From: Planctomycetota bacterium | GTDB taxonomy: Bacteria > Planctomycetota > Planctomycetia > Gemmatales > Gemmataceae | Length of the DNA stretch: 63,854 nucleotides | Assembly (NCBI GenBank): GCA_016191165.1 | Contig: JACPPF010000086.1 | Span: 1-63,854, forward strand | Direction: 5' to 3' | Shown: positions 4,187 to 57,677 of the stretch, in pieces | How positions within the stretch are numbered: the first letter of the stretch is position 1 | Layout: each line of letters begins with the position of its first letter | Made by a program: the position numbers and the translations under genes | Notes under the pieces: generated by a model | What the model was told of the DNA's origin: nothing | Seen by the model: the letters and a program-made list of their open reading frames with translations, nothing else | Databases searched by the model: none

Positions 4187-4357
4187 GAGGCAGAGCCTCG
4201 CAGCCGTGCGGTCCGAGGCAGAGCCTGGGACCGAGGGAGTGAAGAGGCAGAGCCTCGCAGCCGTGCGGTCCGAGGCAGAGCCTGGGACCGAGGGAGTGAA
4301 GAGGCAGAGCCTCGCAGCCGTGCGGTCCGAGGCAGAGCCTGGGACCGAGGGAGTGAA
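4187..4357. repeat. 57-bp tandem repeat, three copies
   Basis: Three identical 57-bp units at 4187-4243, 4244-4300 and 4301-4357. Each has two half-units that begin GAGGCAGAGCCT. The period is a multiple of three and free of stops in the frame of the downstream gene, where each unit would encode 19 residues containing 'RSEAEPGTEGV'. Each unit carries GAGGGAG; in the last copy this motif lies 5 bases from the ATG of the DUF1501 gene and serves as its Shine-Dalgarno sequence. The core is shared with the 122-bp tandem repeat at 57286-57646. Confidence 0.95.
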
Positions 4358-6452: not shown

Positions 6453-7025
6453 ATGACCTGGATACCGGTAATACCGCCGCAGCAAGCCGAGGGCGAGCTT
6501 CGCACCGCCTACGAGATGGTCTACAGCCTCTATCCGCCCGAATATCAGCAGGCCATCGACGCCGTGCGCAAGGCGGACGGCACGACCGACAGCATCGTCG
6601 CGGTCCACAGCCTCATGCCGCGAGCGCTGCTGCACTCCATGTCGGCATACGGCGCGATGCTCGCGCCTGACCTGCCGCTCTCACGCCGACAGCACGAGAT
6701 GATCGCGACCGTGGTGTCGGCGCTGAATAGTTGTTTTTACTGAAGGGAGAGCCATGCCGAGTTCCTGCGGCGCGTGTCGCTCGACGAGGAACTTGCCGTC
6801 CAGCTGGCGCGGGATCATACCCAGGCGGATGTGAGCGATGCCGACCGGGCCATGCTCGACTACGCCGCCAAACTCACGTTGCATCCGGCGCGCGTGGCGC
6901 CCGGGGATCTGGATCGTTTGCGCGCGGTCGGTTTCAGCGATCAAGCAATATTGCAAATCAATCTTATTGCGAGCTGGTTCAACTACATCAACCGCGTCGC
7001 GGATGGGCTGGGTGTCGGGAAATAG
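6453..7025 (+). CDS. AhpD-like peroxidase-related protein with in-frame TGA (candidate selenoprotein)
   Basis: Read through a single TGA at 6741-6743, this is a 190-residue member of the carboxymuconolactone decarboxylase/AhpD superfamily (peroxidase-related subfamily, normally about 190 residues). The N-terminal part 'MTWIPVIPPQQAEGELRTAY' and the C-terminal part 'LDYAAKLTLHPARV...FNYINRVADGLGV' both fit the family with no other stop or frameshift. The site reads E82-x11-C94-F-Y-[TGA97]-x3-H101. In M. tuberculosis AhpD the active residues are E118, C130, C133 and H137: the spacings +12, +15 and +19 are identical, so TGA stands for the second redox Cys. A CxxU motif with selenocysteine is the simplest reading. 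Alternatives are a recent nonsense mutation (TGC or TGT to TGA) or a sequencing error. AGGATCAC precedes the ATG. No selenocysteine genes lie in the window. Confidence 0.8.
6758..6795 (+). promoter_or_regulatory. SECIS-like hairpin after the in-frame TGA
   Basis: CGAGTTCCT (6758-6766) pairs with AGGAACTTG (6787-6795), 9 bp with one G-U. Inside, GCG (6770-6772) can pair with CGC (6778-6780) around the loop CGTGT, whose second base is G. The apical loop lies about 30 bases after the TGA. This fits the general bacterial SECIS description (stem directly downstream, small G-containing apical loop about 16-37 nt from UGA). Pairing was judged by eye, not by folding software. Confidence 0.45.
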
Positions 7026-7078: not shown

Positions 7079-7507
7079 TCAGTAATCGTCGATCCCGAGT
7101 TGAAGTTTGGCGGCCTCCGACATGCGGGCCGGGGTCCAGGGCGGGTCCCAGACGACATCGACCTTGGCGGCGGTCACCGGCTCGACCGCCAGCACGCGGC
7201 GCTGCACGTCGCCGGGCAGCGTGCCCGCGACCGGGCAACCGGGCGAGGTCAGCGTCATCTTGATTTCGACGCCGCCGGTTGGTGCGATCACGATTTCGTA
7301 GATCAGGCCCAACTCGTAGATGTTGACCGGAATCTCCGGGTCGAAGCACTTGAAAAGCGCCTCGACGATGCGCTCCTTCAACGCCTCGATCTCCGCGCCC
7401 GTCAACGGCTGCGCCAGGGGCGGCCTGGCGGGGGGGGCGGGCGCCGCCGGCGGCGCGGGAACGTCCGGATGCTCGTTTTCCACCGGTAAAGGATAACGAT
7501 CGCTCAT
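7079..7507 (-). CDS. sufT: SufT-like MIP18/DUF59 Fe-S assembly factor
   Basis: 142 residues. After a Pro/Ala-rich N-terminal stretch of about 45 residues, the DUF59 domain is clear: 'LFKCFDPEIPVNIYELGLIY' with the conserved DPE/D and Gly-Leu-Ile-Tyr pattern, then 'MTLTSPGCPVAGTLP' containing the reactive Cys, and 'VDVVWDPPWTPARMSEAA'. SufT proteins assist maturation of Fe-S proteins. It is the last gene of the suf operon; its ATG overlaps the stop of sufSE by four bases (ATGA at 7504-7507), which implies translational coupling. Confidence 0.92.
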   Translation of the reverse strand: MSDRYPLPVENEHPDVPAPPAAPAPPARPPLAQPLTGAEIEALKERIVEALFKCFDPEIPVNIYELGLIYEIVIAPTGGVEIKMTLTSPGCPVAGTLPGDVQRRVLAVEPVTAAKVDVVWDPPWTPARMSEAAKLQLGIDDY

Positions 7508-9246
7508 GGTTTTTGCCCAGCCACGTTTTCCGCGAAACGCATCACGCGCTGCACCATCTCGGCGAGCCCGTTGCGGCGTCCCTGGGTCAGGTTCTTGTCC
7601 AGCCCGATGCGTTGCATGAAGGCGGGCATGTCGAACGCGAGCACTTCGCCGGCGCGCTGCCCGCTATATAACCTTTGAAGGAGCGCCAGCTCGCCGCGCA
7701 CGATGTCGGCGTCACTGTCCGCCAGGAATTCGATCACGTCAGGGGTGCCCGGCTTCTTGCGGGCGTGCATGAAGACCGTGCTCTGGCAGCCTTGCACGCG
7801 ATTGCATTCTTGCTTGAGGACGTCGGGCATCGCTGGCAGCTTGCTGCCGATGTCGATCAAATACTCATATTTCTCGGCCCAGTCATCCACGACCTCGAAA
7901 ACCTCGGCGATTTCCTCGGCCGCCTCGCGCGTACTAGGGGCCGCGGCCTGGGGGTAAGGGTAATCGCCGTTCAACGACGCGCCGGCCCGGGGCCGGGCGC
8001 TGGCCACGATTTTCTCGACGGCCTCCGCGAAAGCCTCCACTTCTTCGAGCGTGTTGTACATCGCAAACGACGCGCGCGTCGTCCCCGCGATGCCGAAGCG
8101 TTCCATGAGCGGCTGGCAGCAATGGTGCCCGGTGCGAACTGCGATCCCCTCAATATCGAGCCGAGTGCCAACGTCGAGCGCCGACATATCCTCGACCACA
8201 AACGACAATACGCTCGCCTTCTCCTTCGCTGTCCCGATGATGCGCACGCCGGGGATGGACGCGATACGCTCGGTCGCGAATTCGAGTAGCCTGTGCTCAT
8301 GGCTGGCAATGGAGTCGCGGCCGATCTCTTCGAGATATTCCACCGCCGCGGCCAGGCCGATCGCGCCGGCGATGTTCGGCGTGCCGGCTTCAAATTTGTA
8401 GGGCAGCTGGTTCCAGGTCGTCTTTTCGAAGCTGACATAGCTGATCATGTCGCCGCCGGTTTGATACGGCGGCATCAGCTCAAGGTGTTGCGGCTTGCCA
8501 TACAGGGCGCCGATGCCCGTGGGCCCGTACACCTTGTGTCCCGAGAAGGCATAGAAATCGCAGTCAAGTTTTTGAACGTCAACTCGCAAGTGGGGCGCCG
8601 CCTGAGCGCCGTCGATGACGACGTAAACGCCGCGCTGGTGGGCGAGGTCGATGATTTTTTGAATTGGGTTGATCGTGCCCAGCGCGTTGGAGACGTGGGC
8701 GACGGAGATGATCCGGGTCGCGGGGTTGATCAGCTTTTCGAGCTCGTCGAGCCGCAGCTCGCCGTCGTCGTTGATCGGCACGACACGCAGGTTGGCGTGC
8801 TTCTCCCAGCAGAGCACCTGCCAGGGGACGATGTTGCTGTGATGCTCCAGGGCCGTGAGGATGACTTCGTCCCCGGCGTGGACATGGACTCGGCCAAACG
8901 TCTGGGCAATCAGGTTGATCGCCTCGGTGGCGCCGCGCGTGAAGATCAGTTCACGCAGGCATGGCGCGCCGATGAATTTCTGCACGGCGATGCGGGCTTC
9001 CTCGTACGCTTCCGTCGCGCGTTCACTCAGGGCATGGACGCCGCGATGCACGTTGGCGTGATCGTTTTCGTAATAGTGCTTGAGCGCGTGAATGACCGCG
9101 CGCGGTTTTTGTGACGAAGCGGCATTATCGAGGTAGACGAGCGGCTTGCCGTGGACTTTCTGATCGAGGATCGGGAAATCGGCGCGGATGCGTTCGACGT
9201 CGAACGGTATTTCTGATTTCGTTTGTCGTTCACCAATCGTGATCAT
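7504..9246 (-). CDS. sufS: SufS-SufE fusion: cysteine desulfurase with sulfur acceptor domain
   Basis: 580 residues. Residues about 15-415 are SufS: PLP lysine K238 in 'FSGHKVYGPTG', catalytic C376 in 'RTGHHCCQPLM', 'RASFAMYNT' after it. Residues about 440-575 are SufE, with the sulfur-accepting Cys C487 in 'NRVQGCQST'. The enzyme takes sulfur from cysteine and passes it to SufE within the same chain, for delivery to SufBCD. The frame extends 33 codons upstream, but this part is translation of the palindromic repeat at 9256-9331 ('HAPAWG'), so I start at the ATG at 9246; its ribosome binding site is weak. Fourth structural gene of the suf operon. Confidence 0.95.
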   Translation of the reverse strand: MITIGERQTKSEIPFDVERIRADFPILDQKVHGKPLVYLDNAASSQKPRAVIHALKHYYENDHANVHRGVHALSERATEAYEEARIAVQKFIGAPCLRELIFTRGATEAINLIAQTFGRVHVHAGDEVILTALEHHSNIVPWQVLCWEKHANLRVVPINDDGELRLDELEKLINPATRIISVAHVSNALGTINPIQKIIDLAHQRGVYVVIDGAQAAPHLRVDVQKLDCDFYAFSGHKVYGPTGIGALYGKPQHLELMPPYQTGGDMISYVSFEKTTWNQLPYKFEAGTPNIAGAIGLAAAVEYLEEIGRDSIASHEHRLLEFATERIASIPGVRIIGTAKEKASVLSFVVEDMSALDVGTRLDIEGIAVRTGHHCCQPLMERFGIAGTTRASFAMYNTLEEVEAFAEAVEKIVASARPRAGASLNGDYPYPQAAAPSTREAAEEIAEVFEVVDDWAEKYEYLIDIGSKLPAMPDVLKQECNRVQGCQSTVFMHARKKPGTPDVIEFLADSDADIVRGELALLQRLYSGQRAGEVLAFDMPAFMQRIGLDKNLTQGRRNGLAEMVQRVMRFAENVAGQKP

Positions 9247-9255
9247 GAGATTCGA

Positions 9256-9331
9256 CCAGCCCCACGCGCCAGCGTGGGGATTTGAATGTTGGACATTGCG
9301 TCCCCGGCCCCACGCTGGCGCGTGGGGCTGG
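9256..9331. repeat. palindromic repeat between sufD and sufSE
   Basis: CCAGCCCCACGC at 9256-9267 pairs with GCGTGGGGCTGG at 9320-9331. Each arm is also a hairpin: CCCCACGC-gcca-GCGTGGGG and CCCCACGC-tggc-GCGTGGGG, and the loops GCCA and TGGC are complementary to each other. Confidence 0.85.
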
Positions 9332-9334
9332 TGG

Positions 9335-10564
9335 TTAGCGCACAATGCGCGTTTCCATTTCCGCGCGAATCGCCTCGATCTTGACGCGGTTGACGATGTC
9401 GTTGGCGAACGCGAAGGTCAGCAGTCGTCGCGCCGGTTCGAGCGGGATGCCACGCGATTGTAGGTAAAACAACTGGGTCGCATCGAGCTGACCGATGGTG
9501 GCGCCGTGCGTGCATTTCACGTCGTCGGCGAAGATTTCGAGCTGAGGCTTGGTATTGATGGTCGCGTCGTCGGAGAGGAGCAGCACCTTGTTCGTCTGCT
9601 TGGCGTCGGTCTTCTGGGCGTCCTTGCGGACGAAGATCTTGCCGTTGAAGACTCCATGCGACTTGCCGTCGAGGATGCCCTTGTACAATTCATGGCTCGC
9701 GCAGTTGGGCTGAGCGTGGTCGATGACGGTAAAGTTGTCCATGTGTTGCTTGCCGTCAGCGAGGTAGAGGCCATTGACGGTCGCCTCGGCATGTTCGCCG
9801 TCGAAGCGAACGCGGACTTCATTGCGCACCAGGGCGCCGCCGAGCGAGAGATAGTGCGTCGTGAAGTTGCTCTTGGCGGCCATTACGACCTGCGTGTTGG
9901 CGATGTGGTAGGCGCTTACGCTTTCCTCTTGCACCTTCACATGGTCGAGTACGCCATAATCGCTGAGGGTAATCTCAGTGACAGCATTTGTGAAGTATGT
10001 TTGGCCGCCAAAGTATCGCTCAACGACAGTAGCCCGGGCATTTTTTCCGATGACGATCAACGTTCGGGGCTGAATAACAACTGGCTTCTCATCAGATCGA
10101 GCATAATGGATGATCTCGATCGGCGTTTCAAGAATGACGTCGTCGGGGATGGTCACGTAAAGTCCGTCCGCGACAAAGCTCGCATTGAGCGCCGTGAATG
10201 CATTGGCACGGACGTCCGCGATTTTGCCGACGAGTGGAAGGCTGCTTGGCGCATTCGCCAGGGAGCCGATCGAGATTGAGCTCGGAACGGGCGATGAAAT
10301 TGCAGGGGCGAATCGACCATTGAGAAAGTGGAATTGCAACTTGTTTTTCGGCGCCGCGGGGCCGCTCTCCATCAGCGCATTTGGCAATTCGAATGATGTC
10401 TCGGCGAGCGGCGCGATATTGGTGAAGCGCCAATCCTCTGACCTCACCGTCGGCAACGGCAGCGTCGCGAAGCGCGCCCGCGCTTCCTCACGCAGAGCGC
10501 GATAGCGCGGCGTCGCATCGCGATCGAACGGGGCGAATAGTTTCGTGAACATTGTCTTGTCCAT
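9335..10564 (-). CDS. sufD: Fe-S cluster assembly protein SufD
   Basis: 409 residues. SufD partners SufB in the SufBC2D scaffold that builds [Fe-S] clusters. The N-terminal half has 'SEDWRFTNIAPLAETSFELP'; the C-terminal half is the SufBD beta-helix core, with 'DNFTVIDHAQPNCASHELYK', 'GVFNGKIFVRKDAQKTDAKQ' and 'CTHGATIGQLDATQLFYLQS', including the conserved His of the cluster-forming site, and 'SRGIPLEPARRLLTFAFAND' at the end. ATG at 10564 used; a second ATG at 10552 (residue 5) is equally possible. It lies between palindromic repeats on both sides in the suf operon; its stop codon is only 3 bases from the repeat at 9256-9331. Confidence 0.95.
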   Translation of the reverse strand: MDKTMFTKLFAPFDRDATPRYRALREEARARFATLPLPTVRSEDWRFTNIAPLAETSFELPNALMESGPAAPKNKLQFHFLNGRFAPAISSPVPSSISIGSLANAPSSLPLVGKIADVRANAFTALNASFVADGLYVTIPDDVILETPIEIIHYARSDEKPVVIQPRTLIVIGKNARATVVERYFGGQTYFTNAVTEITLSDYGVLDHVKVQEESVSAYHIANTQVVMAAKSNFTTHYLSLGGALVRNEVRVRFDGEHAEATVNGLYLADGKQHMDNFTVIDHAQPNCASHELYKGILDGKSHGVFNGKIFVRKDAQKTDAKQTNKVLLLSDDATINTKPQLEIFADDVKCTHGATIGQLDATQLFYLQSRGIPLEPARRLLTFAFANDIVNRVKIEAIRAEMETRIVR

Positions 10565-10571
10565 GGTTCAT

Positions 10572-10627
10572 ATAGCCCGCCATTTATGGCGGGCCTCGCA
10601 ACGAACCCGCCATGAATGGCGGGCTAT
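10572..10627. repeat. palindromic repeat between sufC and sufD
   Basis: ATAGCCCGCCAT (10572-10583) pairs with ATGGCGGGCTAT (10616-10627). Each arm is itself a hairpin (GCCCGCCA/TGGCGGGC and CCCGCCAT/ATGGCGGG). It fills almost the entire sufC-sufD gap. Confidence 0.85.
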
Positions 10628-10630
10628 TTG

Positions 10631-11386
10631 TCAAACGGTTGCCATCCCTGCCTTGATCGGATCGTACCCGTGCGCCTCCAGCTCCAGCGCCAGCCCTTTG
10701 CCGCCCGTCTTCACGATGCGGCCTTCCGACAACACATGCACGAAGTCCGGCACGATGTGGTCCAGCAGCCGCTGGTAATGCGTGATGACGATCATCGCGC
10801 GATCCTTCGAACGCAGGGCGTTGACGCCTTCCGCGACCGCCTTCATCGCGTCGATGTCCAGCCCCGAATCGGTCTCATCGAGGATGCACAGCTTCGGCTC
10901 CAGCACGGCCATCTGGAAGATCTCGTTGCGTTTCTTTTCGCCGCCGGAGAAGCCTTCGTTGACGGCGCGTTTGAGCAAGTCCTCCGGCATGTGCAGGACC
11001 TTGGCCTTCGCCTTGACCAGCTTGAGAAACGCCGCCGCGTCAAGTTCAGGCTCCCCGCGATACTTGCGCACCGAGTTGACCGATGCGCGCAGGAAGTAAT
11101 TGTTGGTGACGCCGGGAATCTCGACCGGGTACTGGAACGCAAGGAAGATGCCTTCGCCGGCGCGTTCCTCGGGTTTCATGTCGAGGAGGTTCTTGCCCTC
11201 GAAGAGGACTTCGCCCTCGGTCACTTCGAAGGCGTCCTTGCCGGTGAGAACGCCGGCGAGCGTGCTCTTGCCGGAGCCGTTGGGCCCCATGATGGCGTGT
11301 ACCTCGCCGGATTTGACGGTGAGGTTGATGCCGCGCAGGATGTCCTTGTCGGCGACTTTGGCGTGGAGGTTTCTTATCGTTAACAT
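10631..11386 (-). CDS. sufC: Fe-S cluster assembly ATPase SufC
   Basis: 251 residues, the usual length. ABC-type ATPase of the SufBCD scaffold, cytoplasmic. Walker A 'GPNGSGKST' near residue 33, Q-loop region 'IFLAFQYPVEIPGV', signature 'GFSGGEKKRNEIFQMA', Walker B 'LCILDETDSGLDID', H-loop 'MIVITHYQRLL'. The frame extends upstream through the repeat at 11403-11458, but 'MLTIRNLHAKV' at 11386 is the normal SufC start and is preceded by AAGGGAAAAAC. Third gene of the suf operon. Confidence 0.97.
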   Translation of the reverse strand: MLTIRNLHAKVADKDILRGINLTVKSGEVHAIMGPNGSGKSTLAGVLTGKDAFEVTEGEVLFEGKNLLDMKPEERAGEGIFLAFQYPVEIPGVTNNYFLRASVNSVRKYRGEPELDAAAFLKLVKAKAKVLHMPEDLLKRAVNEGFSGGEKKRNEIFQMAVLEPKLCILDETDSGLDIDAMKAVAEGVNALRSKDRAMIVITHYQRLLDHIVPDFVHVLSEGRIVKTGGKGLALELEAHGYDPIKAGMATV

Positions 11387-11402
11387 TGTTTTTCCCTTGT
11401 TT

Positions 11403-11458
11403 GCCGCTTGCGGCTTAGCGCTCGTATGGCGCCATGCGAGCGCTAAGCCGCAAGCGGC
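11403..11458. repeat. palindromic repeat between sufB and sufC (CCGCTTGCGG family)
   Basis: Near-perfect palindrome of 23-bp arms beginning GCCGCTTGCGGCTTAGCGCT and ending AGCGCTAAGCCGCAAGCGGC, with a short central TATGGCGCCATG. It abuts the sufB stop codon. Related copies lie at 16229-16283, 46530-46566 and, decayed, 61367-61422. Confidence 0.9.
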
Positions 11459-12909
11459 TATCCAACACTCCCCTCCAGGCTCACGCCCAGGAGCTTCTTC
11501 GCCTCGACCGCGAACTCCATCGGCAGTTCCTTGAAGACTTCCTTGCAGAAGCCGTTGACGATCATGCTGACGGCATCCTCGGCGCTCAGGCCGCGCTGCT
11601 TGCAATAGAAGATCTGGTCCTCACCGATCTTCGACGTGGAGGCTTCGTGCTCGACGGTGGAGCTGGTGTTCTTCACCTCGATGTACGGGAACGTGTGGGC
11701 GCCGCACTTGTCGCCCAAGAGGAGCGAATCGCACTGGCTGTAGTTGCGCGCGTTCTCGGCCCCCTTCAGGACCTTCACCTGGCCGCGATAAGTGTTCTGT
11801 CCGCGGCCGGCGGAGATGCCCTTGGAGACGATGGTGCTCGAGGTGTTCTTGCCGACGTGGATCATCTTGGTGCCGGTGTCGGCTTGTTGCTTGTGATTGG
11901 TCAACGCGACGGAGTAGAATTCGCCGACCGAGTCGTCGCCGATCAGGATGCAGCTGGGGTATTTCCAGGTGATCGCGGAGCCGGTTTCGACTTGCGTCCA
12001 GGAGATCTTGCTGTTGCGCCCCCGGCAAGCTCCGCGCTTGGTGACGAAGTTGTAGATGCCCCCCTTGCCGTCCTTGTCGCCGGGATACCAGTTTTGCACA
12101 GTCGAATACTTGATTTGCGAACCCTCGCCGACGCTTACGAGCTCGACGACGGCCGCGTGCAGTTGATTCTCATCGCGGATCGGGGCGGTGCAGCCTTCGA
12201 GATAGCTGACATACGCGCCTTCTTCGCAGACGATCAGCGTGCGTTCGAACTGCCCCGTCTCCTTGGCGTTGATGCGGAAGTACGTCGAAAGCTCCATCGG
12301 GCAGCGCACCCCCTTGGGGATGTACGCGAACGAGCCATCGCTGAAGACCGCGGAGTTGAGCGTCGCGAAATAGTTGTCGTTGTAGGGGACCACGGAGCCG
12401 AGGTACTTCTTGACCAGCTCCGGATGATTCTGCACCGCTTCCGAGAATGAGCAGAAGATGACACCCATCTCGGCGAGCTTGCCCCGAAAGGTCGTGGCGA
12501 CCGACACGCTGTCGAACACCGCGTCCACGGCGACGCCGGTGAGGCGCTTCTGCTCGTCGAGCGAGATGCCGAGCTTCTCGAACGTCTTGAGCATTTCCGG
12601 ATCGACTTCATCGAGGCTCTTGAGTTGCTTCTTGGGCTTGGGCGCGGAATAGTAGATCATGTTCTGATAATCGACCGGCGGGAACGTGACGTTTGGCCAC
12701 CAGCGCGGCTCTTCCATCGTGGTCCAATACCGATACGCCTTGAGTCGCCAGTCGAGCAACCATTGTGGTTCTTTCTTCTTGGTGGAGATGAGGCGCACGA
12801 CGTCTTCGCTGAGGCCCTTGGGGATTGCTTCCGCTTCGATATCGGAGACGAAGCCCCATTCGTATTCCTTGTTGGCGAACTGTTCGATGGTTTGGGTTGC
12901 GGTGGTCAT
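11458..12909 (-). CDS. sufB: Fe-S cluster assembly protein SufB
   Basis: 483 residues, full length for SufB. Scaffold subunit on which the nascent Fe-S cluster is formed with SufC and SufD. Typical segments: '[20 protein letters not shown]' at the N-terminus, '[20 protein letters not shown]', '[20 protein letters not shown]', '[20 protein letters not shown]', and C-terminal '[20 protein letters not shown]', which holds the Cys proposed to take part in cluster assembly. ATG at 12909 is the only plausible start. First structural gene after the sufR regulator. Confidence 0.97.
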
Positions 12910-46566: not shown

Positions 46567-46750
46567 TTGACAGCGGTCCCGGCCGATCTTGCCGGTCGCA
46601 CTGAGAAAAGAAGCCTGTCAAAATGGGAAAGAAAATTTCACGAGAAACTTTCAATTTTTCTCCTTTACATTTGCCGATGAATTGGTAGTCTTGTTAAGTT
46701 GGGTAAGTTGGAAAATAGCGCCTTCGTCCCTTTTTTTGGAGTGTGGATTC

Positions 46751-49700
46751 ATGTTTATTTCCTGGGCTCGGCTGATGTGGAAGCGGATGTGGAATGGCGC
46801 TCGCAAGGCGAAGATGGCTCCACGTTGGCGCCCGTCCCTGGAAATGCTCGAAGGACGTCTGGCTCCGGCCGTGTTCAATATCACCGACTTCACCGACGGG
46901 CTGGCTCTCAATCAGCTGCGCGGCGCCATCTCCGAGGCAAATAGCAACGGGGATATCAGCAATACCTTCAACCTGGGCGTCGGAACCTATGGTCTTACCA
47001 TTGGCAACACATTTGGGCAGGAAAATCTCAACGCCCAGGGCGACCTCGACCTGACCGCCAACGGCAAGACCTACATCTTCAACGGCGTCAGCACGGCTTC
47101 CACATTCATTGACGCCGGCGCCATCGACCGCGTCCTTCAGATCACAGGCACCGGCGTCACGGCCCGCTTCGACAGCGTGACCCTACAAAACGGCCGGGCA
47201 ATCGACGATGGCTCCGACGGCGCCGAGGGCGGATTCACCGACTCTCGCGGCGGCGGCATCCTCGTCACCGGCTCCGCGAACCTCTCGTTCACCAACGCCC
47301 TCGTCACCAACAACATAGCCGTCGGGTTTAACGGCAACAACGGCGCGAGTGGATCGTCCCCAAGCGACAACGCCAACGGCGGTGCCCCCGGCACCAACGC
47401 CGCGGGCGGCGGGCTCTACTCCGTCGCGGGCAACATTACGCTGACAAACTCCGGCTTCCAAAACAACACGGCCCAGGGCGGCAGCGGCGGCAACGGCGGC
47501 ATTGGCTTCACCGGCTCCAACCCCAGCAACGGCGGCGATGGCGGCGAAGGCGGCAACGCCCAGGGCGGCGGCATCCGCCTCGGCACCGGCAACGTCGAAC
47601 TTCACGACAACGCCTACGTCAACAGCAACTTCGCCTACGGCGGCAACGGCGGCATCGGCGGCAACGGCGGCGATAGCACCTCCGCCTACGGCGGCGCCGG
47701 CGGACTCGCCGGACGCGGCGGTAGCGGTGGCAACGCCGAGGGCGGCGGCATCTGGATCGCCGACGGCGACGTCCTCATCGATCCCTCCACCATCAATTCC
47801 AACTTCGCCGGCGGCGGCAACGGCGGTAACGGCGGCAACGGCGGAGATGCCTACGGCGGCACCGGCGCCTACGGCGGCGCCGGCGGCGCCGGCGGCACGG
47901 CCGGCGACGGCGGCGACGGCGGCTACGCCAGCGGCGGCGGCGTCTATGTCCTGCTCGGCAACGTCACCATCGATGATGCCTCCCAGGCCAATAGCAACAG
48001 CGCCAACGGCGGTTATGGTGGTTTCGGCGGCTACGGCGGCAACGGCGTGAATGGCCCGACCGTGTCCTTTGTCGGCGGCGACGGCGGCAACGGCGGCAAC
48101 GGCGGCAACGCCTCCGGCGGCGGCATCTGGGCCAGCGAGGGCGACGTCACCGTCGATAACTCCTCCACCGTCAACAGCAACAACGCCCGCGGCGGCGAGG
48201 CCGCCCGTGGCGGCGACGGCGGCAACGGCGGGTTTGGCGGCGGCAACGGCGGCGACGGCGGCGACGCCGGCAATGCCTCCGGCGGCGGCATCTGGGTCAA
48301 CTCCGGCGCCGTCCGCGTTGACAACGGCTCGCAAGTGAATAACAACAACGCCGGCGGCGGCGCCGTGGTCAGCATTACCAGTCTCATCGGCAACGTGACC
48401 GACTTCGAGGATGCCGACACCCCGACCTTTGCCACCGTGATTGCCGGTCGCTTGGTGTTCACGACTCCGGGCTACGCTCATTCGCATGGCGGGCTCACGA
48501 CGATCACCGTGGAGGTCCACGATCCAAATCCCGACACCTGGACCGTCGTTTTCACAACCGACCTCGACAACAGCGACGAGTTCAACTTTGACGGCCTGGA
48601 TATTACCTTCACCCCCCAACCCGTGGATCAGGTGCGACTCACCTCCGACCCCGATCAAAACAATACCTACCATGGCTGGTCCCCGTTGTTGCTGCAAATT
48701 GGCGAAGCCGGCGCCCGTGGCAATGGCGGTAACGGCGGCTTCGGGTCGTCCAGCGACGGCAACGGCGGCACTGGCGGCAACGGCGGCAACGCCTCCGGCG
48801 GCGGCATCTGGGTCAACACCGGGTCCGTGCTCGTGGATAACCTTTCCCAGGTCGATAACAACTCGGCCGCGGGCAACACGGCCGGCGATGGCGGCGCAGG
48901 CTTCTTCGGCACCAGCCTCGGCGGCGCCGGCGGCAGCGCGGCGGGCGGCGGCATCTGGATTAGCGACGGCGACGTCACCATTAACCAATCCTCCTCCGTC
49001 AACGGCAACGGTGCCAGCGGCGGTAACGGCGGCGCAGGCAATGGCGGCGGCTTTGCCCCCGCTCAGGCCACCTCCGCTCCCAACCCCGGACAGGGCGGTA
49101 ACGCACGCGGCGGCGGCATCTGGGCCTATGGCGGAATGGTTACCGTGGACAATTCTTCCACGGTCAACCTTAACCGGGCCAGCGCCGGCGCGGGCGCGGA
49201 CGGTTTCGATGGCGGCGAGGGTGGCGACGGCGGTACGGGCGGCAATGCCTCTGGCGGCGGTATCTGGGCCGAACTCGGCGATGTCACGGTCGATAACTCC
49301 TCCTCCGTTGATTCCAACCAGGCCATCGCCGCCCAGGGTGGTGACGGCGGGTATGGTGGCGCGGGCGGCGACGGCGGCTTTGGCGGCAACGCCGAGGGCG
49401 GCGGCATCTGGGCCAGCCAGGGTTCGGTGACCATCAATCAATTCTCCTCGGTCAACGGCAATTCAGCCTACGGCGGCGACGGCGGCGACGGCGGCGACGG
49501 CGGCTACGGCGGCAACGGCGGCTACGGCGGCAACGGCGGCTACGCCTCGGGCGGCAACGTCTGGGCCAGCGCCGGAAACGTTTCCTTCGATAACAACTCC
49601 GATGGCGGTGAAGGCGCAGCTTTCGGCGGCGATGGCGGCGATGGCGGCGACGGCGCCTACGGCGGCGGCAACGGCGGCCACGGCGGATTCGGCGGCGATG

Positions 49701-52700
49701 CCGCCGGCGGCAACATCTTTGCCTTCGATGGCGCGGTGACCCTCGATAACAACTCCGACGGCGGCATAGGCGCAGCCATCGGCGGCGACGGCGGGGAAGG
49801 CGGCTCCGGCGGGTACGGCGGCGGCGACGGTGGCGACGGCGGCAATGCTGGCTCCGCTTACGGCGGCGGCATCTGGGCCTACCAGGGCAACGTCCGCGTC
49901 GATAACAACTCCAACGTCAACTCCAACTTCGCCTCGGCTGGCTCCGCGGGCAATGGCGGTTTCGGCGGCAATGGCAACTACGGCGGGCAAGCCGGCCACG
50001 GCGGCTTCGGCGGCAACGGCGGCGGAGCCGAAGGCGGCGGCATCTGGGCCTACGGCGGGAACGTGACCATTGAAAACGGCTCTTCCGTCAATAACAACTC
50101 GGCGCACGCCGGAAGCACCGCCGGCTTTGGCGGCTTCGGCGGGTTTGCCAATGGCGCGGGTGGCATTGGCGGTGATGGTGGCGAAGGCGGCGATGGCGGC
50201 AGCGCCTACGGCGGCGGTATCTGGGCCTACGAAGGCGATGTCACTGTCGCCTACGGATCCTCCGTTGACTTCAACCGCGCACGCGCGAGCGCCGGCGGCG
50301 ACGGCGCCGAGGGCGGCTTCGGAAATTCGGGCGCCAGCGCCGGCGATGGCGGAGCAGGCGGCAATGGCGGCAATGCCTTGGGCGGCGGCGTCTGGACCCG
50401 CAACGGGAATGTCAATCTCGACTACGGCTCCTCCATCGACGGTAACCTGGCGGACGGCGGCGATGGCGGTTCCGGCGCGTCCGGCGGCAGCGGTAACTAT
50501 GGCGGCGGCAACGGTGGCTTCGCCGGCAACGGCGGCTTCGCCCAGGGCGGCGGCATCTGGGCTCTCAACGGCGATGTCACCGTCGACAACAACTCCTCCG
50601 TGGATAACAACCAGGCGGCCGGCGGGGAAGGCGGGCGCGGCGGCTTTGGCCGTTACGGCGGAAACGGCGGCGATGGCGGCCAGGGCGGCTACGCCCAGGG
50701 CGGCGGTATCTGGGCCGATGGTGGAAATGTCACTGTCGATAACTCCTCTTCCGTCAACAGCAACGAGGCTGCGGGCGGCGACGGCGGCGCCGCCGCCGAT
50801 GCCAACTCCGGCGGCAACGGCGGCCAGGGCGGCAACGGCGCGTTCGCCCAGGGCGGCGGCGTCTGGGCCTACAACGGCGATGTCACCGTCCAGAACTCCT
50901 CCTCCGTAAACAATAACCGCGCCGCAGGCGCTGAAGGCGGCTACGGCGGCAACGGCGGCGGCAATGCCATCACCGGCGGCGATGGCGGCGACGGCGGCTC
51001 CGGCGGCGATGGCCAGGGCGGCGGCATCTGGGCCTTCAACGGCGAGGTCTCCGTCGTGTCCTCCACCGTCAATAACAACGGCGCCTACGGCGGCGATGCC
51101 AACTACGCCGGCGACGGCGCCAACGGCTCCTCTTACGGCGGCGCCGCCGGCAACGGCGGCGATGGCGGCAATGCCGAGGGCGGCGGTATCTGGATCAACT
51201 CCGGCGCCGTCACGCTCACCGCCTCCACCGTCGACAATAACGCCGCCCAGGCCGGCTTCGGCACCGACGGCGGCAACGGTAACGCGAACGCCTTCGGCTC
51301 CACCGGCGGCATCCTCTACATGGTGGAGGACGGAAACTTCAGCGGGCTGTTCACCCTCGACACCACCACTGGCGCCGGCAACAACATCGGCGAATCCGGA
51401 ACCGACAGCTCAACGGACGGCCTGACCGAAACCGACGACCCCAGCGTCCTCATCGGCTCGCAATACGACCCGATCGTGCGCATCAACGCCGACGGGTCCG
51501 GGTCAACCTCCACCGGCGGCAACCAGGGCGCCGAGGGGCTGGCGTTCGATCCAACCTCCAACACCTACTACGGAATCCTCAACGAGGACTTCTTCACCTT
51601 CGACCCCGTCACCGGTAACCGGCTGGCGACCTTGGCCGGCTCGCCCGACGACGTGGAAGGTCTCGCCTACGGCGGCCCCGATACGATCTACGGCCTGACC
51701 AGCAACGCTGAAACCGACGGCGACCTCTACCGCTACACAATCAGCACCGATACCTGGGAACTCATCGCCAACACCGGCATCGAGTTCAGCAGCGCGGGCC
51801 TCGCCTACGATCCCGTTAGCGACATCCTCTACGCGAAGGGTTCGCAGGACACCAACCTTTACCAGATCAACCCCGCCACGGCCGAGGCCACCCTGGTTGG
51901 CGATACCGGCGTCTCCGGGGGCGGCGGTTTGGCCTTTGTGGCCGGCGAACCCGTCGGCAACGGCGGTAACGGCGGTTCGGCGCTGGGCGGCGGCGTCTAT
52001 TCCGGCAACGGCGGCGCCACCGTCACCGTCTACAATTCCACCGTCTCCAACAACTACGTCCAGGGCAACGACGGCGGCAACGCCGGCACGGGTGGGACCA
52101 CCGGCGGTACTCCCACTGCCGGCAACGGCGGCGATTCCCTCGGCGGCGGCATCTACACCGATGGCGGAACCCTCCGCCTCTTCAACAGCACCGTCTCCGG
52201 CAACGACGCGGACTACGGCGGTAACCCGGGCGCCAGTTCGCCGTCGGTCAACGCCGCCTCCAGCGCTCCCAACGGCGCGGTCGGCGTCTCCCAGGGTGGC
52301 GGCATCTTCGCCGGCGGCGGCAACGTCACCCTCCGCAACGTCACCATCGCCGATAACACCGCGGCCGACGAAGGCGGCGGCCTCTTCAACGCCTACGGCG
52401 GCAACCTGTCGCTCTTTAACACCATCATCGGCGACAACGACAGCTTCAACACCGACGAGGACGATTTCTCCAACCAGGGCGCGTTTGCCGCCACTCCGCT
52501 CAACAACCTGATCGAAACCCCGGATGGGCACACCATCGCCAACAACGTCAACGGCAATATCGTCGGGTTCGACCCGGTGCTCGGGCCGCTCCAGGACAAC
52601 GGCGGGCAAACCTTGACGCATCTGCCTGGTTTTAGCAGCCCCGCCATCGACCACGGCAATAACGCTCAAGCGACTGGACCGAACGGCCAGTTCATGAACC

Positions 52701-53848
52701 TTGACCAGCGTGATTTGCCACGCGTCTCGATCGTGGATATCGGCGCCGTGGAGGTCAAACCGATCTTCCGCGTCGTCGGCGCAGGCCCCGGCGGCTCGTC
52801 GCGGGTGCGCATCTTCAATGCGATCTCTGGCCTGGAGATTTCCAGCTTCTACGTCTATAGCCCGCCGTTCGTCGGCGGCGTGCGCGTGGCCGTGGCGGAT
52901 GTGAACGGCGACGGTATCGACGACATCGTCACCGGGCACGGCACCAATACCTCCGGGCCCATCGTCAAGATCGTCGATGGCACCAGACTCACCGAGATCG
53001 ACGGCAATGGCCGAATCATGGACAGCGCCTTGCTCGGCAGCTTCTTCGCCTTCAGCAAGAGCTTCACCGGCGGCGTGACCGTGGCAGCGGGTGACTTCAA
53101 CAACGACGGTCTGGCCGATATCGTCGTCGGCTCGGGCACCGGGGCGGCGGCTCGCATCAAGGTCATCGACGCGACGCAGCTAAACAACGTTCAGCCCAAC
53201 GGCGTGATCGCTCCGGGCGCGGAGGTGGCAAGCTTCTTCGCCTTCGCGACCACCTTCACCGGCGGCGTGCGGGTCGCGGCGGGTGACATCGATGGGGACG
53301 GCACCCCCGATATCATCGCTGGGGCCGGCGCCGGCGCCCAGTCCCGCGTCAAGGTCATCGATGGCACGCAACTCGGCAACCTCACCCCCGGCGGGGTCAT
53401 CCATGAGGACGCGCTGCTCGCCAACTTCGTGGCCTTCAGCCCGTCATTCACCGGTGGCGTCACGGTCGCGGTTGGCGATGTCAACTTTGACGGCACGCTC
53501 GATGTCGTTGTCGGCGCCGGCCTCAACGGCGGCTCTCGCGTCCGCGTCATCGACGGCACCATGCTCAACAACCTCCAGCCCAACGGCCAAATTGCCAACG
53601 CCGCCGTCCTGACCTCCTTCTTCGCCTTCACCTCTGGCTGGACCGGTGAAGTCACCGTGGCGGCGGGCGATATCAACAACGACGGCCGCGCCGAGATCCT
53701 CGTCGGCCTGGGCAGCGGCGCCAAGCCGAAGATCCGCGTCTTCGACGGCGTGACCTTCGCCCAGATCGAAGAGGCCATCGTGTTCGACCCGACCTTCACG
53801 GGCGGCGTGTTCGTGGCGACGGCGGGGCTCGAACCGCTGATGACCTAA
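46751..53848 (+). CDS. giant Gly-rich beta-helix surface protein with FG-GAP repeats
   Basis: 2365 residues. Start at ATG 46751 (GGAGTG 9 bases upstream); the frame is open 54 codons further. The N-terminus has basic and hydrophobic residues followed by 'SLEMLEGRLAPAVFNITD', the planctomycete 'LExRLxP' export-type motif. Residues about 160-1515 are a PGRS-like array of roughly 40-50-residue units of the pattern 'GGDGGNGGNASGGGIWA..GDVTVDNSSSVNSN'; I count about two dozen 'GGGIW/GGGVW/GGGIY' cores, as in right-handed beta-helices. Two non-repeat inserts break it: about 539-650 and 1517-1733, the second with beta-propeller-like blades ('GLAFDPTSNTYYGILNEDFF'). Residues about 2040-2365 hold five FG-GAP/VCBS-type repeats ('VAVADVNGDGIDDIVTGHG'). 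Probably secreted and adhesive or structural. Ca2+ may bind the DxNxDG loops. Confidence 0.93.
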   Translation: MFISWARLMWKRMWNGARKAKMAPRWRPSLEMLEGRLAPAVFNITDFTDGLALNQLRGAISEANSNGDISNTFNLGVGTYGLTIGNTFGQENLNAQGDLDLTANGKTYIFNGVSTASTFIDAGAIDRVLQITGTGVTARFDSVTLQNGRAIDDGSDGAEGGFTDSRGGGILVTGSANLSFTNALVTNNIAVGFNGNNGASGSSPSDNANGGAPGTNAAGGGLYSVAGNITLTNSGFQNNTAQGGSGGNGGIGFTGSNPSNGGDGGEGGNAQGGGIRLGTGNVELHDNAYVNSNFAYGGNGGIGGNGGDSTSAYGGAGGLAGRGGSGGNAEGGGIWIADGDVLIDPSTINSNFAGGGNGGNGGNGGDAYGGTGAYGGAGGAGGTAGDGGDGGYASGGGVYVLLGNVTIDDASQANSNSANGGYGGFGGYGGNGVNGPTVSFVGGDGGNGGNGGNASGGGIWASEGDVTVDNSSTVNSNNARGGEAARGGDGGNGGFGGGNGGDGGDAGNASGGGIWVNSGAVRVDNGSQVNNNNAGGGAVVSITSLIGNVTDFEDADTPTFATVIAGRLVFTTPGYAHSHGGLTTITVEVHDPNPDTWTVVFTTDLDNSDEFNFDGLDITFTPQPVDQVRLTSDPDQNNTYHGWSPLLLQIGEAGARGNGGNGGFGSSSDGNGGTGGNGGNASGGGIWVNTGSVLVDNLSQVDNNSAAGNTAGDGGAGFFGTSLGGAGGSAAGGGIWISDGDVTINQSSSVNGNGASGGNGGAGNGGGFAPAQATSAPNPGQGGNARGGGIWAYGGMVTVDNSSTVNLNRASAGAGADGFDGGEGGDGGTGGNASGGGIWAELGDVTVDNSSSVDSNQAIAAQGGDGGYGGAGGDGGFGGNAEGGGIWASQGSVTINQFSSVNGNSAYGGDGGDGGDGGYGGNGGYGGNGGYASGGNVWASAGNVSFDNNSDGGEGAAFGGDGGDGGDGAYGGGNGGHGGFGGDAAGGNIFAFDGAVTLDNNSDGGIGAAIGGDGGEGGSGGYGGGDGGDGGNAGSAYGGGIWAYQGNVRVDNNSNVNSNFASAGSAGNGGFGGNGNYGGQAGHGGFGGNGGGAEGGGIWAYGGNVTIENGSSVNNNSAHAGSTAGFGGFGGFANGAGGIGGDGGEGGDGGSAYGGGIWAYEGDVTVAYGSSVDFNRARASAGGDGAEGGFGNSGASAGDGGAGGNGGNALGGGVWTRNGNVNLDYGSSIDGNLADGGDGGSGASGGSGNYGGGNGGFAGNGGFAQGGGIWALNGDVTVDNNSSVDNNQAAGGEGGRGGFGRYGGNGGDGGQGGYAQGGGIWADGGNVTVDNSSSVNSNEAAGGDGGAAADANSGGNGGQGGNGAFAQGGGVWAYNGDVTVQNSSSVNNNRAAGAEGGYGGNGGGNAITGGDGGDGGSGGDGQGGGIWAFNGEVSVVSSTVNNNGAYGGDANYAGDGANGSSYGGAAGNGGDGGNAEGGGIWINSGAVTLTASTVDNNAAQAGFGTDGGNGNANAFGSTGGILYMVEDGNFSGLFTLDTTTGAGNNIGESGTDSSTDGLTETDDPSVLIGSQYDPIVRINADGSGSTSTGGNQGAEGLAFDPTSNTYYGILNEDFFTFDPVTGNRLATLAGSPDDVEGLAYGGPDTIYGLTSNAETDGDLYRYTISTDTWELIANTGIEFSSAGLAYDPVSDILYAKGSQDTNLYQINPATAEATLVGDTGVSGGGGLAFVAGEPVGNGGNGGSALGGGVYSGNGGATVTVYNSTVSNNYVQGNDGGNAGTGGTTGGTPTAGNGGDSLGGGIYTDGGTLRLFNSTVSGNDADYGGNPGASSPSVNAASSAPNGAVGVSQGGGIFAGGGNVTLRNVTIADNTAADEGGGLFNAYGGNLSLFNTIIGDNDSFNTDEDDFSNQGAFAATPLNNLIETPDGHTIANNVNGNIVGFDPVLGPLQDNGGQTLTHLPGFSSPAIDHGNNAQATGPNGQFMNLDQRDLPRVSIVDIGAVEVKPIFRVVGAGPGGSSRVRIFNAISGLEISSFYVYSPPFVGGVRVAVADVNGDGIDDIVTGHGTNTSGPIVKIVDGTRLTEIDGNGRIMDSALLGSFFAFSKSFTGGVTVAAGDFNNDGLADIVVGSGTGAAARIKVIDATQLNNVQPNGVIAPGAEVASFFAFATTFTGGVRVAAGDIDGDGTPDIIAGAGAGAQSRVKVIDGTQLGNLTPGGVIHEDALLANFVAFSPSFTGGVTVAVGDVNFDGTLDVVVGAGLNGGSRVRVIDGTMLNNLQPNGQIANAAVLTSFFAFTSGWTGEVTVAAGDINNDGRAEILVGLGSGAKPKIRVFDGVTFAQIEEAIVFDPTFTGGVFVATAGLEPLMT

Positions 53849-57084: not shown

Positions 57085-57285
57085 GGAAACGACTTCCTTC
57101 ATCTGGCGGTGAAAAAACGTCTCGGATCGAACAGCTACTATAGGAATCGTCCGGATCGGCGTCCACGTGGTTTGGCGTCAAGGTTTGGTGTCGCCGCTGT
57201 GTGACTGGCTGAAAAGTAGCTGAAATCGCGAGAACTGAGGTGGCGCACAACAGGTTTTCACGAGTTAAGGACAACCAGCGAAAAA

Positions 57286-57646
57286 GCTCCCGATCTCGTT
57301 CCCAGGCTTTGCCCGCCGAACGCGAAATCGCTTTCGCGGGCCGGACGCGAGGCAGAGCCTCGCGGGTAGGGCGTTCCCAGGCGGAGCCTGGGAACGAGGA
57401 AAAAAAAGCTCCCGATCTCGTTCCCAGGCTTTGCTCGCCGACCGCGAAATCGCTTTCGCGGGCTGGACGCGAGGCAGAGCCTCGCGGGTAGTGCGTTCCC
57501 AGGCGGAGCCTGGGAACGAGGAAAAAAAAGCTCCCGATCTCGTTCCCAGGCTTTGCTCGCCGACCGCGAAATCGCTTTCGCGGGCTGGACGCGAGGCAGA
57601 GCCTCGCGGGTAATGCGTTCCCAGGCGGAGCCTGGGAACGAGGAAA
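57286..57646. repeat. 122-bp tandem repeat, three copies
   Basis: Three near-identical units beginning GCTCCCGATCTCGTTCCCAG at 57286, 57408 and 57530. Each carries GCGAGGCAGAGCCTCGCGGG and CCCAGGCGGAGCCTGGGAAC, two palindromic motifs, and poly-A at the junction. The motifs are shared with the 57-bp repeat at 4187-4357. It fills the space between rplU and the acyltransferase gene. No array proteins or spacers: not a CRISPR. Confidence 0.95.
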
Positions 57647-57677
57647 AACCTAACCGGATGGACGCGGAGTTGACGGG

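Follow-up and report, generated by a model that had tools for sequence, protein, structure and literature searches.

A very probable AhpD-like CxxU selenoprotein gene with a predicted bacterial SECIS hairpin in a Gemmataceae planctomycete, and the differing hairpins of its orthologs

The window (that is, the whole 63.9 kb stretch of DNA analysed here) contains, on its forward strand at positions 6453-7025, a frame of 190 codons that runs from an ATG to a TAG, is free of frameshifts and is interrupted just once, where codon 97 (6741-6743) is an in-frame TGA. This codon occupies the second position of a redox CxxU motif, C94-F-Y-U97, which is accompanied by E82 and H101 and whose first residue is encoded by a TGT at 6732-6734; C94 occurs in 38 of 39 orthologs. 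An earlier examination of the letters alone (termed here the sequence-only reading) had described the locus as one 190-residue family member broken once by a TGA, had spaced E82, C94, the TGA and H101 as are E118, C130, C133 and H137 of M. tuberculosis AhpD, and had placed the TGA at the second catalytic Cys. The frame and the four positions are as described there; moreover, a profile of the orthologs, in which positions 78-118 align with 114-155 of the M. tuberculosis protein (1gu9/1knc) at an offset of +36, maps these residues onto those four, with U97 falling on C133. When the window was scanned for TGA codons preceded by 60 or more open codons, followed by 50 or more and showing a coding-type GC1/GC2/GC3 signature on both flanks, this codon alone was found. 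Because it is the sole such TGA, and because each half of the protein on its own matches the NCBIfam model TIGR01926, the interrupted frame is more than a chance arrangement.

The protein obtained by reading through the TGA scores 129.1 bits against TIGR01926 ('peroxidase-related enzyme'; cut-off 81.8), which is matched by all 31 aligned orthologs as well, and it passes the Pfam CMD model. An AlphaFold2 model of this protein is all-helical (mean pLDDT 94.1, pTM 0.90); its top match in the PDB is 6k40, an alkyl hydroperoxide reductase (AhpD) of D. radiodurans which, from the title of the structure, we take to be DR_1765, and the next matches are other TIGR01926-type structures. The D. radiodurans enzyme shares with the window protein the TIGR01926-type fold (TM 0.80, 31% identity) and the position of the redox motif, but it is a Cys-Cys protein whereas the window protein is Cys-Sec. 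The D. radiodurans mutant shows sensitivity towards H2O2, and complementation is poor with variants altered in the two Cys residues (PMC8945050). M. tuberculosis AhpD is a remote relative, of about 10% identity and again Cys-Cys, which shares the E/C/C/H spacing (0/+12/+15/+19) and the CMD fold; the window protein is not a member of the corresponding model, TIGR00777 (19.1 bits, cut-off 191.95). Nor does it belong to NF041238, the AhpD_rel_CFYUT (seleno)protein (hypothetical protein 1 of the Sargasso Sea), a CxxU selenoprotein with the same CFYU motif but a model of 357 positions (69.8 bits, cut-off 175), or to NF053654, the YciW-related (seleno)protein (30 bits, cut-off 310).

Convergent to the gene, on the reverse strand at 7079-12909, lie SUF-type Fe-S assembly genes encoding SufB, SufC, a SufD-like protein, a SufS-SufE fusion (613 aa) and an FeS_assembly_P protein. 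A functional link to these neighbours was rejected: the flanks of the orthologs, over about 1.5 kb, contain no suf genes, and most orthologs have no conserved gene beside them. Elsewhere in the window, a 57-bp unit at 4187-4357 is present in three perfect copies that overlap the 5' end of a DUF1501-like ORF, whose true start probably lies after the repeat; a 122-bp unit at 57281-57648, repeated three times (97% matches), contains GAGGCAGAGCCTCGCGG and is worded like the repeat at 4187, and the two possibly represent one dispersed repeat family of the genome. The forward strand at 46589-53848 encodes a Gly/Asn-rich protein of 2419 aa with GGNGGNGG repeats and an FG-GAP-like C-terminal part. The nearest named genomes by sequence include Gemmataceae of Lake Baikal and similar waters, which suggests that the window comes from a freshwater planctomycete of the Gemmataceae.

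The window's assembly (7.2 Mb in 183 contigs, 95% complete) contains a tRNA-Sec with anticodon TCA (UCA; 73 bits), selB (362 bits) and selA (560 bits). Thus, of the four genes that the sequence-only reading had named as informative, selA, selB and selC are there, while for selD no match reached the cut-off. A search of the assembly with the SelD of a close relative gave weak matches only; one of these, an apparent selD match on C116, was judged from its sequence to be a ThiL-like kinase. Because selD is present in six of six genomes of the same genus, an assembly gap is the likeliest cause of its absence. In these six genomes (G001-G006) selD takes one of two forms, a short gene that contains a TGA in frame or an open frame of 760-810 codons without a TGA; to judge by its length, the latter is possibly an NADH dehydrogenase-SelD fusion, a type of protein known from marine data. 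More generally, selB was found in 32 of the 35 genomes whose ortholog carries the TGA, compared with 60% of all genomes, for which a Fisher test that takes no account of phylogeny gives p = 1.6e-5. A tRNA-Sec is present in all three remaining genomes, whose completeness is 65-89%. Sec machinery has been described for planctomycetes, Gemmata obscuriglobus included (PMC4807772).

Downstream of the TGA, at 6758-6795 of the forward strand, a hairpin that fits the bacterial SECIS (bSECIS) model is predicted, as the sequence-only reading had suggested be checked. It consists of a 5' arm (6758-6771), an apical loop GCGU (6772-6775) that begins 28 nt after the UGA, a 3' arm (6776-6780), an internal loop (6781-6786) and an outer 3' arm (6787-6795), and its folding energy is about -16.9 kcal/mol (z -1.87). 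The model allows an upper stem of 4-16 bp, a loop of 3-9 nt with a G within its first two positions, a spacing of 16-37 nt and an MFE of at most -7.5 (PMC13188914); the 5-bp upper stem, the GCGU loop and the 28-nt spacing lie within these constraints. Loose criteria of this sort, however, are also passed by 64% of codon-shuffled sequences, and since random codon choice in such GC-rich genes passes them this often, conservation of the pairs is the better test of a SECIS element. Among 22 genes of the Gemmataceae family, 121 of 132 outer-stem pairs are Watson-Crick, as compared with 87 +/- 4 in synonymous-codon shuffles (0 of 500 shuffles), which hold the protein sequence and the codon usage of every gene constant but do not retain the ancestry that the genes share. 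With the 3' arm slid out of register as a control, pairing falls to 24-49% (92.7% in register); in addition, three pairs of the stem have changed on both sides (that is, in a compensatory manner). Dinucleotide shuffling of a 56-nt segment did not make the hairpin appear unusual (z -0.20) and left it undetected in longer segments, whereas synonymous-codon shuffles combined with per-pair counts detected it; an Rfam search of the gene returned nothing relevant.

Among the full-length planctomycete orthologs, which number 39 with the window gene counted in and span 49-99% identity, the codon at the Sec site is TGA in 35 and TGC in four, and in none is it TAA or TAG. A second collection of 80 loci from named genomes, which overlaps partly with the first set, has TGA at 79 loci and TGC at one; the phyla, as labelled in the records, are Planctomycetota, Acidobacteriota, Armatimonadota, Chloroflexota, Melainabacteria, Gemmatimonadota, Zixibacteria and Latescibacterota. 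One genus contains both codons, TGA in a single genome and TGC in three others, and selB is missing from two of those three. Median pN/pS in the planctomycete orthologs is 0.41 downstream of the TGA and 0.49 upstream, so that purifying selection acts on the codons to both sides, and the relatives showed neither additional stops nor frameshifts. Under table 11 the TGA truncates the protein at its active site, as a nonsense mutation would do in an ordinary pseudogene derived from a Cys-type AhpD gene. Against this stand the retention of the same TGA in dozens of species from several phyla, its conservation among orthologs whose synonymous divergence is near saturation, the selection downstream and the lack of any other disruption seen; this explanation, which the sequence-only reading had already doubted given the undamaged downstream sequence, is highly improbable and is counted as refuted. 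A TGC or TGT misread as TGA during sequencing or assembly might be suspected of a single contig from an assembly of 183, but independent genomes, including those of the isolates Limnoglobus roseus and Gemmata sp. IIL30, carry TGA at the same codon. As the L. roseus sequence is a complete chromosome, metagenome assembly error is excluded, and an error of either kind, likewise counted as refuted, retains a negligible probability.

The failure to find selD, which is needed for selenophosphate, would be in keeping with a selenium-free protein, in which the UGA is read as Cys, Trp or Ser or is passed by unspecific readthrough. Yet the assembly has a canonical tRNA-Sec, selA and selB, and the genus as sampled has selD throughout; many of the orthologs end in a TGA terminator of their own, which implies that UGA is not reassigned genome-wide; and the codon alternates with Cys alone. 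A selenium-free product is therefore improbable. Two separate polypeptides could in principle arise through reinitiation past the TGA, for example at the GTG at 6774, where a mechanically called ORF begins; a start there, however, would forfeit U97, H101 and half of the catalytic helix, all of which are invariant or nearly so, and conservation runs right up to the TGA, leaving this arrangement very hard to credit. The explanation preferred here, with a probability of about 0.95, is that 6453-7025 is an intact selenoprotein gene whose UGA is decoded as Sec by means of the hairpin at 6758-6795 and whose product is an AhpD-like enzyme. The proposal of a candidate selenoprotein by the sequence-only reading is in this way supported by selA, selB and selC in the genome, by relatives with either TGA or Cys and by the bSECIS-type hairpin downstream.

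According to this selenoprotein explanation, SelB and Sec-tRNA(Sec,UCA) would decode the UGA at 6741-6743 as directed by the SECIS-like hairpin, yielding an all-helical AhpD-like enzyme (CMD fold, TIGR01926) with the motif C94-F-Y-U97 and with E82 and H101 as a putative proton relay. By analogy, Sec97, which takes the place that the catalytic C133 has in M. tuberculosis AhpD, would be the attacking residue, acting upon a peroxide or upon the disulfide of a peroxiredoxin-type partner, and C94 the resolving residue; the two would form a selenenylsulfide, which a cellular dithiol would then reduce again. The window protein is very probably a Sec-dependent thiol peroxidase/reductase, the name 'peroxidase' being borrowed from the family. 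Because no conserved operon partner that would name a substrate was found near the orthologs, the putative function is given at most as a thiol peroxidase or an AhpD-type reductant of a peroxidase.

Less expected than the selenoprotein itself is that the position of the hairpin differs by clade. In the related planctomycete family f3, pairing of the Gemmataceae-type distal stem is at chance, and a proximal hairpin, ACGCAGAGUUUCUGCGU, with a 17-nt spacer, has 70 of 70 pairs compared with 45 +/- 3 in shuffles (0 of 500); in the four planctomycete Cys orthologs every stem is near chance. Across many phyla this proximal hairpin hardly varies in its letters. In a maximum-likelihood tree the distal type is confined, except for L164 and the long-branch L081, to one supported clade (26 rows, 99/98), which comprises Gemmataceae and three nested Chloroflexota genes; one gene inside this clade, L121, is labelled 'other' owing to an insertion that breaks its outer stem. 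A Melainabacteria-like clade has a third hairpin, GUGACUC-UGGAU-GAGUCAC. Four of its genes (L118, L100, L107 and L134) carry tandem candidate SECIS hairpins in the 54 nt after the TGA, namely the proximal ACGCAGAGUUUCUGCGU and the distal GUGACUC-UGGAU-GAGUCAC, of which their relatives have the distal one alone; the proximal stem of L118 shows a compensatory change from C-G to U-A. Conversely, L128 (Latescibacterota) has TGC at the Sec site and a proximal hairpin that is still letter-perfect, probably a remnant SECIS element left by a recent Sec-to-Cys change, a phenomenon that has been reported (PMC1794560). Each clade's hairpin presumably functions as its SECIS element, and it is moderately probable that this element has moved within one orthologous selenoprotein, the Gemmataceae having lost the proximal hairpin and using the distal one, and the Melainabacteria-like clade using the third. 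Genes with both a proximal and a distal element, such as the four Melainabacteria-like ones, are what would be expected of an intermediate in such a relocation.

For COG2128, AhpD-like selenoproteins with CxxU have been on record since 2005, from the Sargasso Sea (27 sequences; PMC1088965), and were described again in 2008, from GOS (299 sequences; PMC2398784); a review of 2026 lists TIGR01926 with CxxU (PMC13188914). That such proteins were known already, as the sequence-only reading had stated, is accordingly correct. The window gene is a further member of this family (TIGR01926 / COG2128), as indicated by its score, by the alignment of its UGA with the second Cys and by a hairpin within the bSECIS constraints. 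It shares with the Sargasso Sea and GOS proteins the NCBIfam model, the CxxU arrangement and a predicted bacterial SECIS element downstream; it differs in having a Gemmataceae planctomycete as its host, and from the orthologs of other phyla in that its SECIS element is distal (28-nt spacer) rather than proximal and near-invariant (17-nt spacer). In the part of the literature covered, no paper was found that reports this selenoprotein from Gemmataceae or describes a relocation of its hairpin.

Gene calling under table 11 would show a truncated gene at this locus where an intact selenoenzyme is encoded. Since the name attached to TIGR01926, 'peroxidase-related enzyme', gives no hint of selenium, other genes of this type may likewise be truncated by automatic annotation. 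The selenoenzyme is widespread: planctomycetes, Acidobacteriota and further lineages of soil and fresh water have it. If the relocation is true, SECIS elements are replaceable inside a fixed protein sequence, and the family is a natural test bed both for the movement of bacterial SECIS elements and for the tolerance of SelB towards different spacers (17 versus about 28-31 nt).
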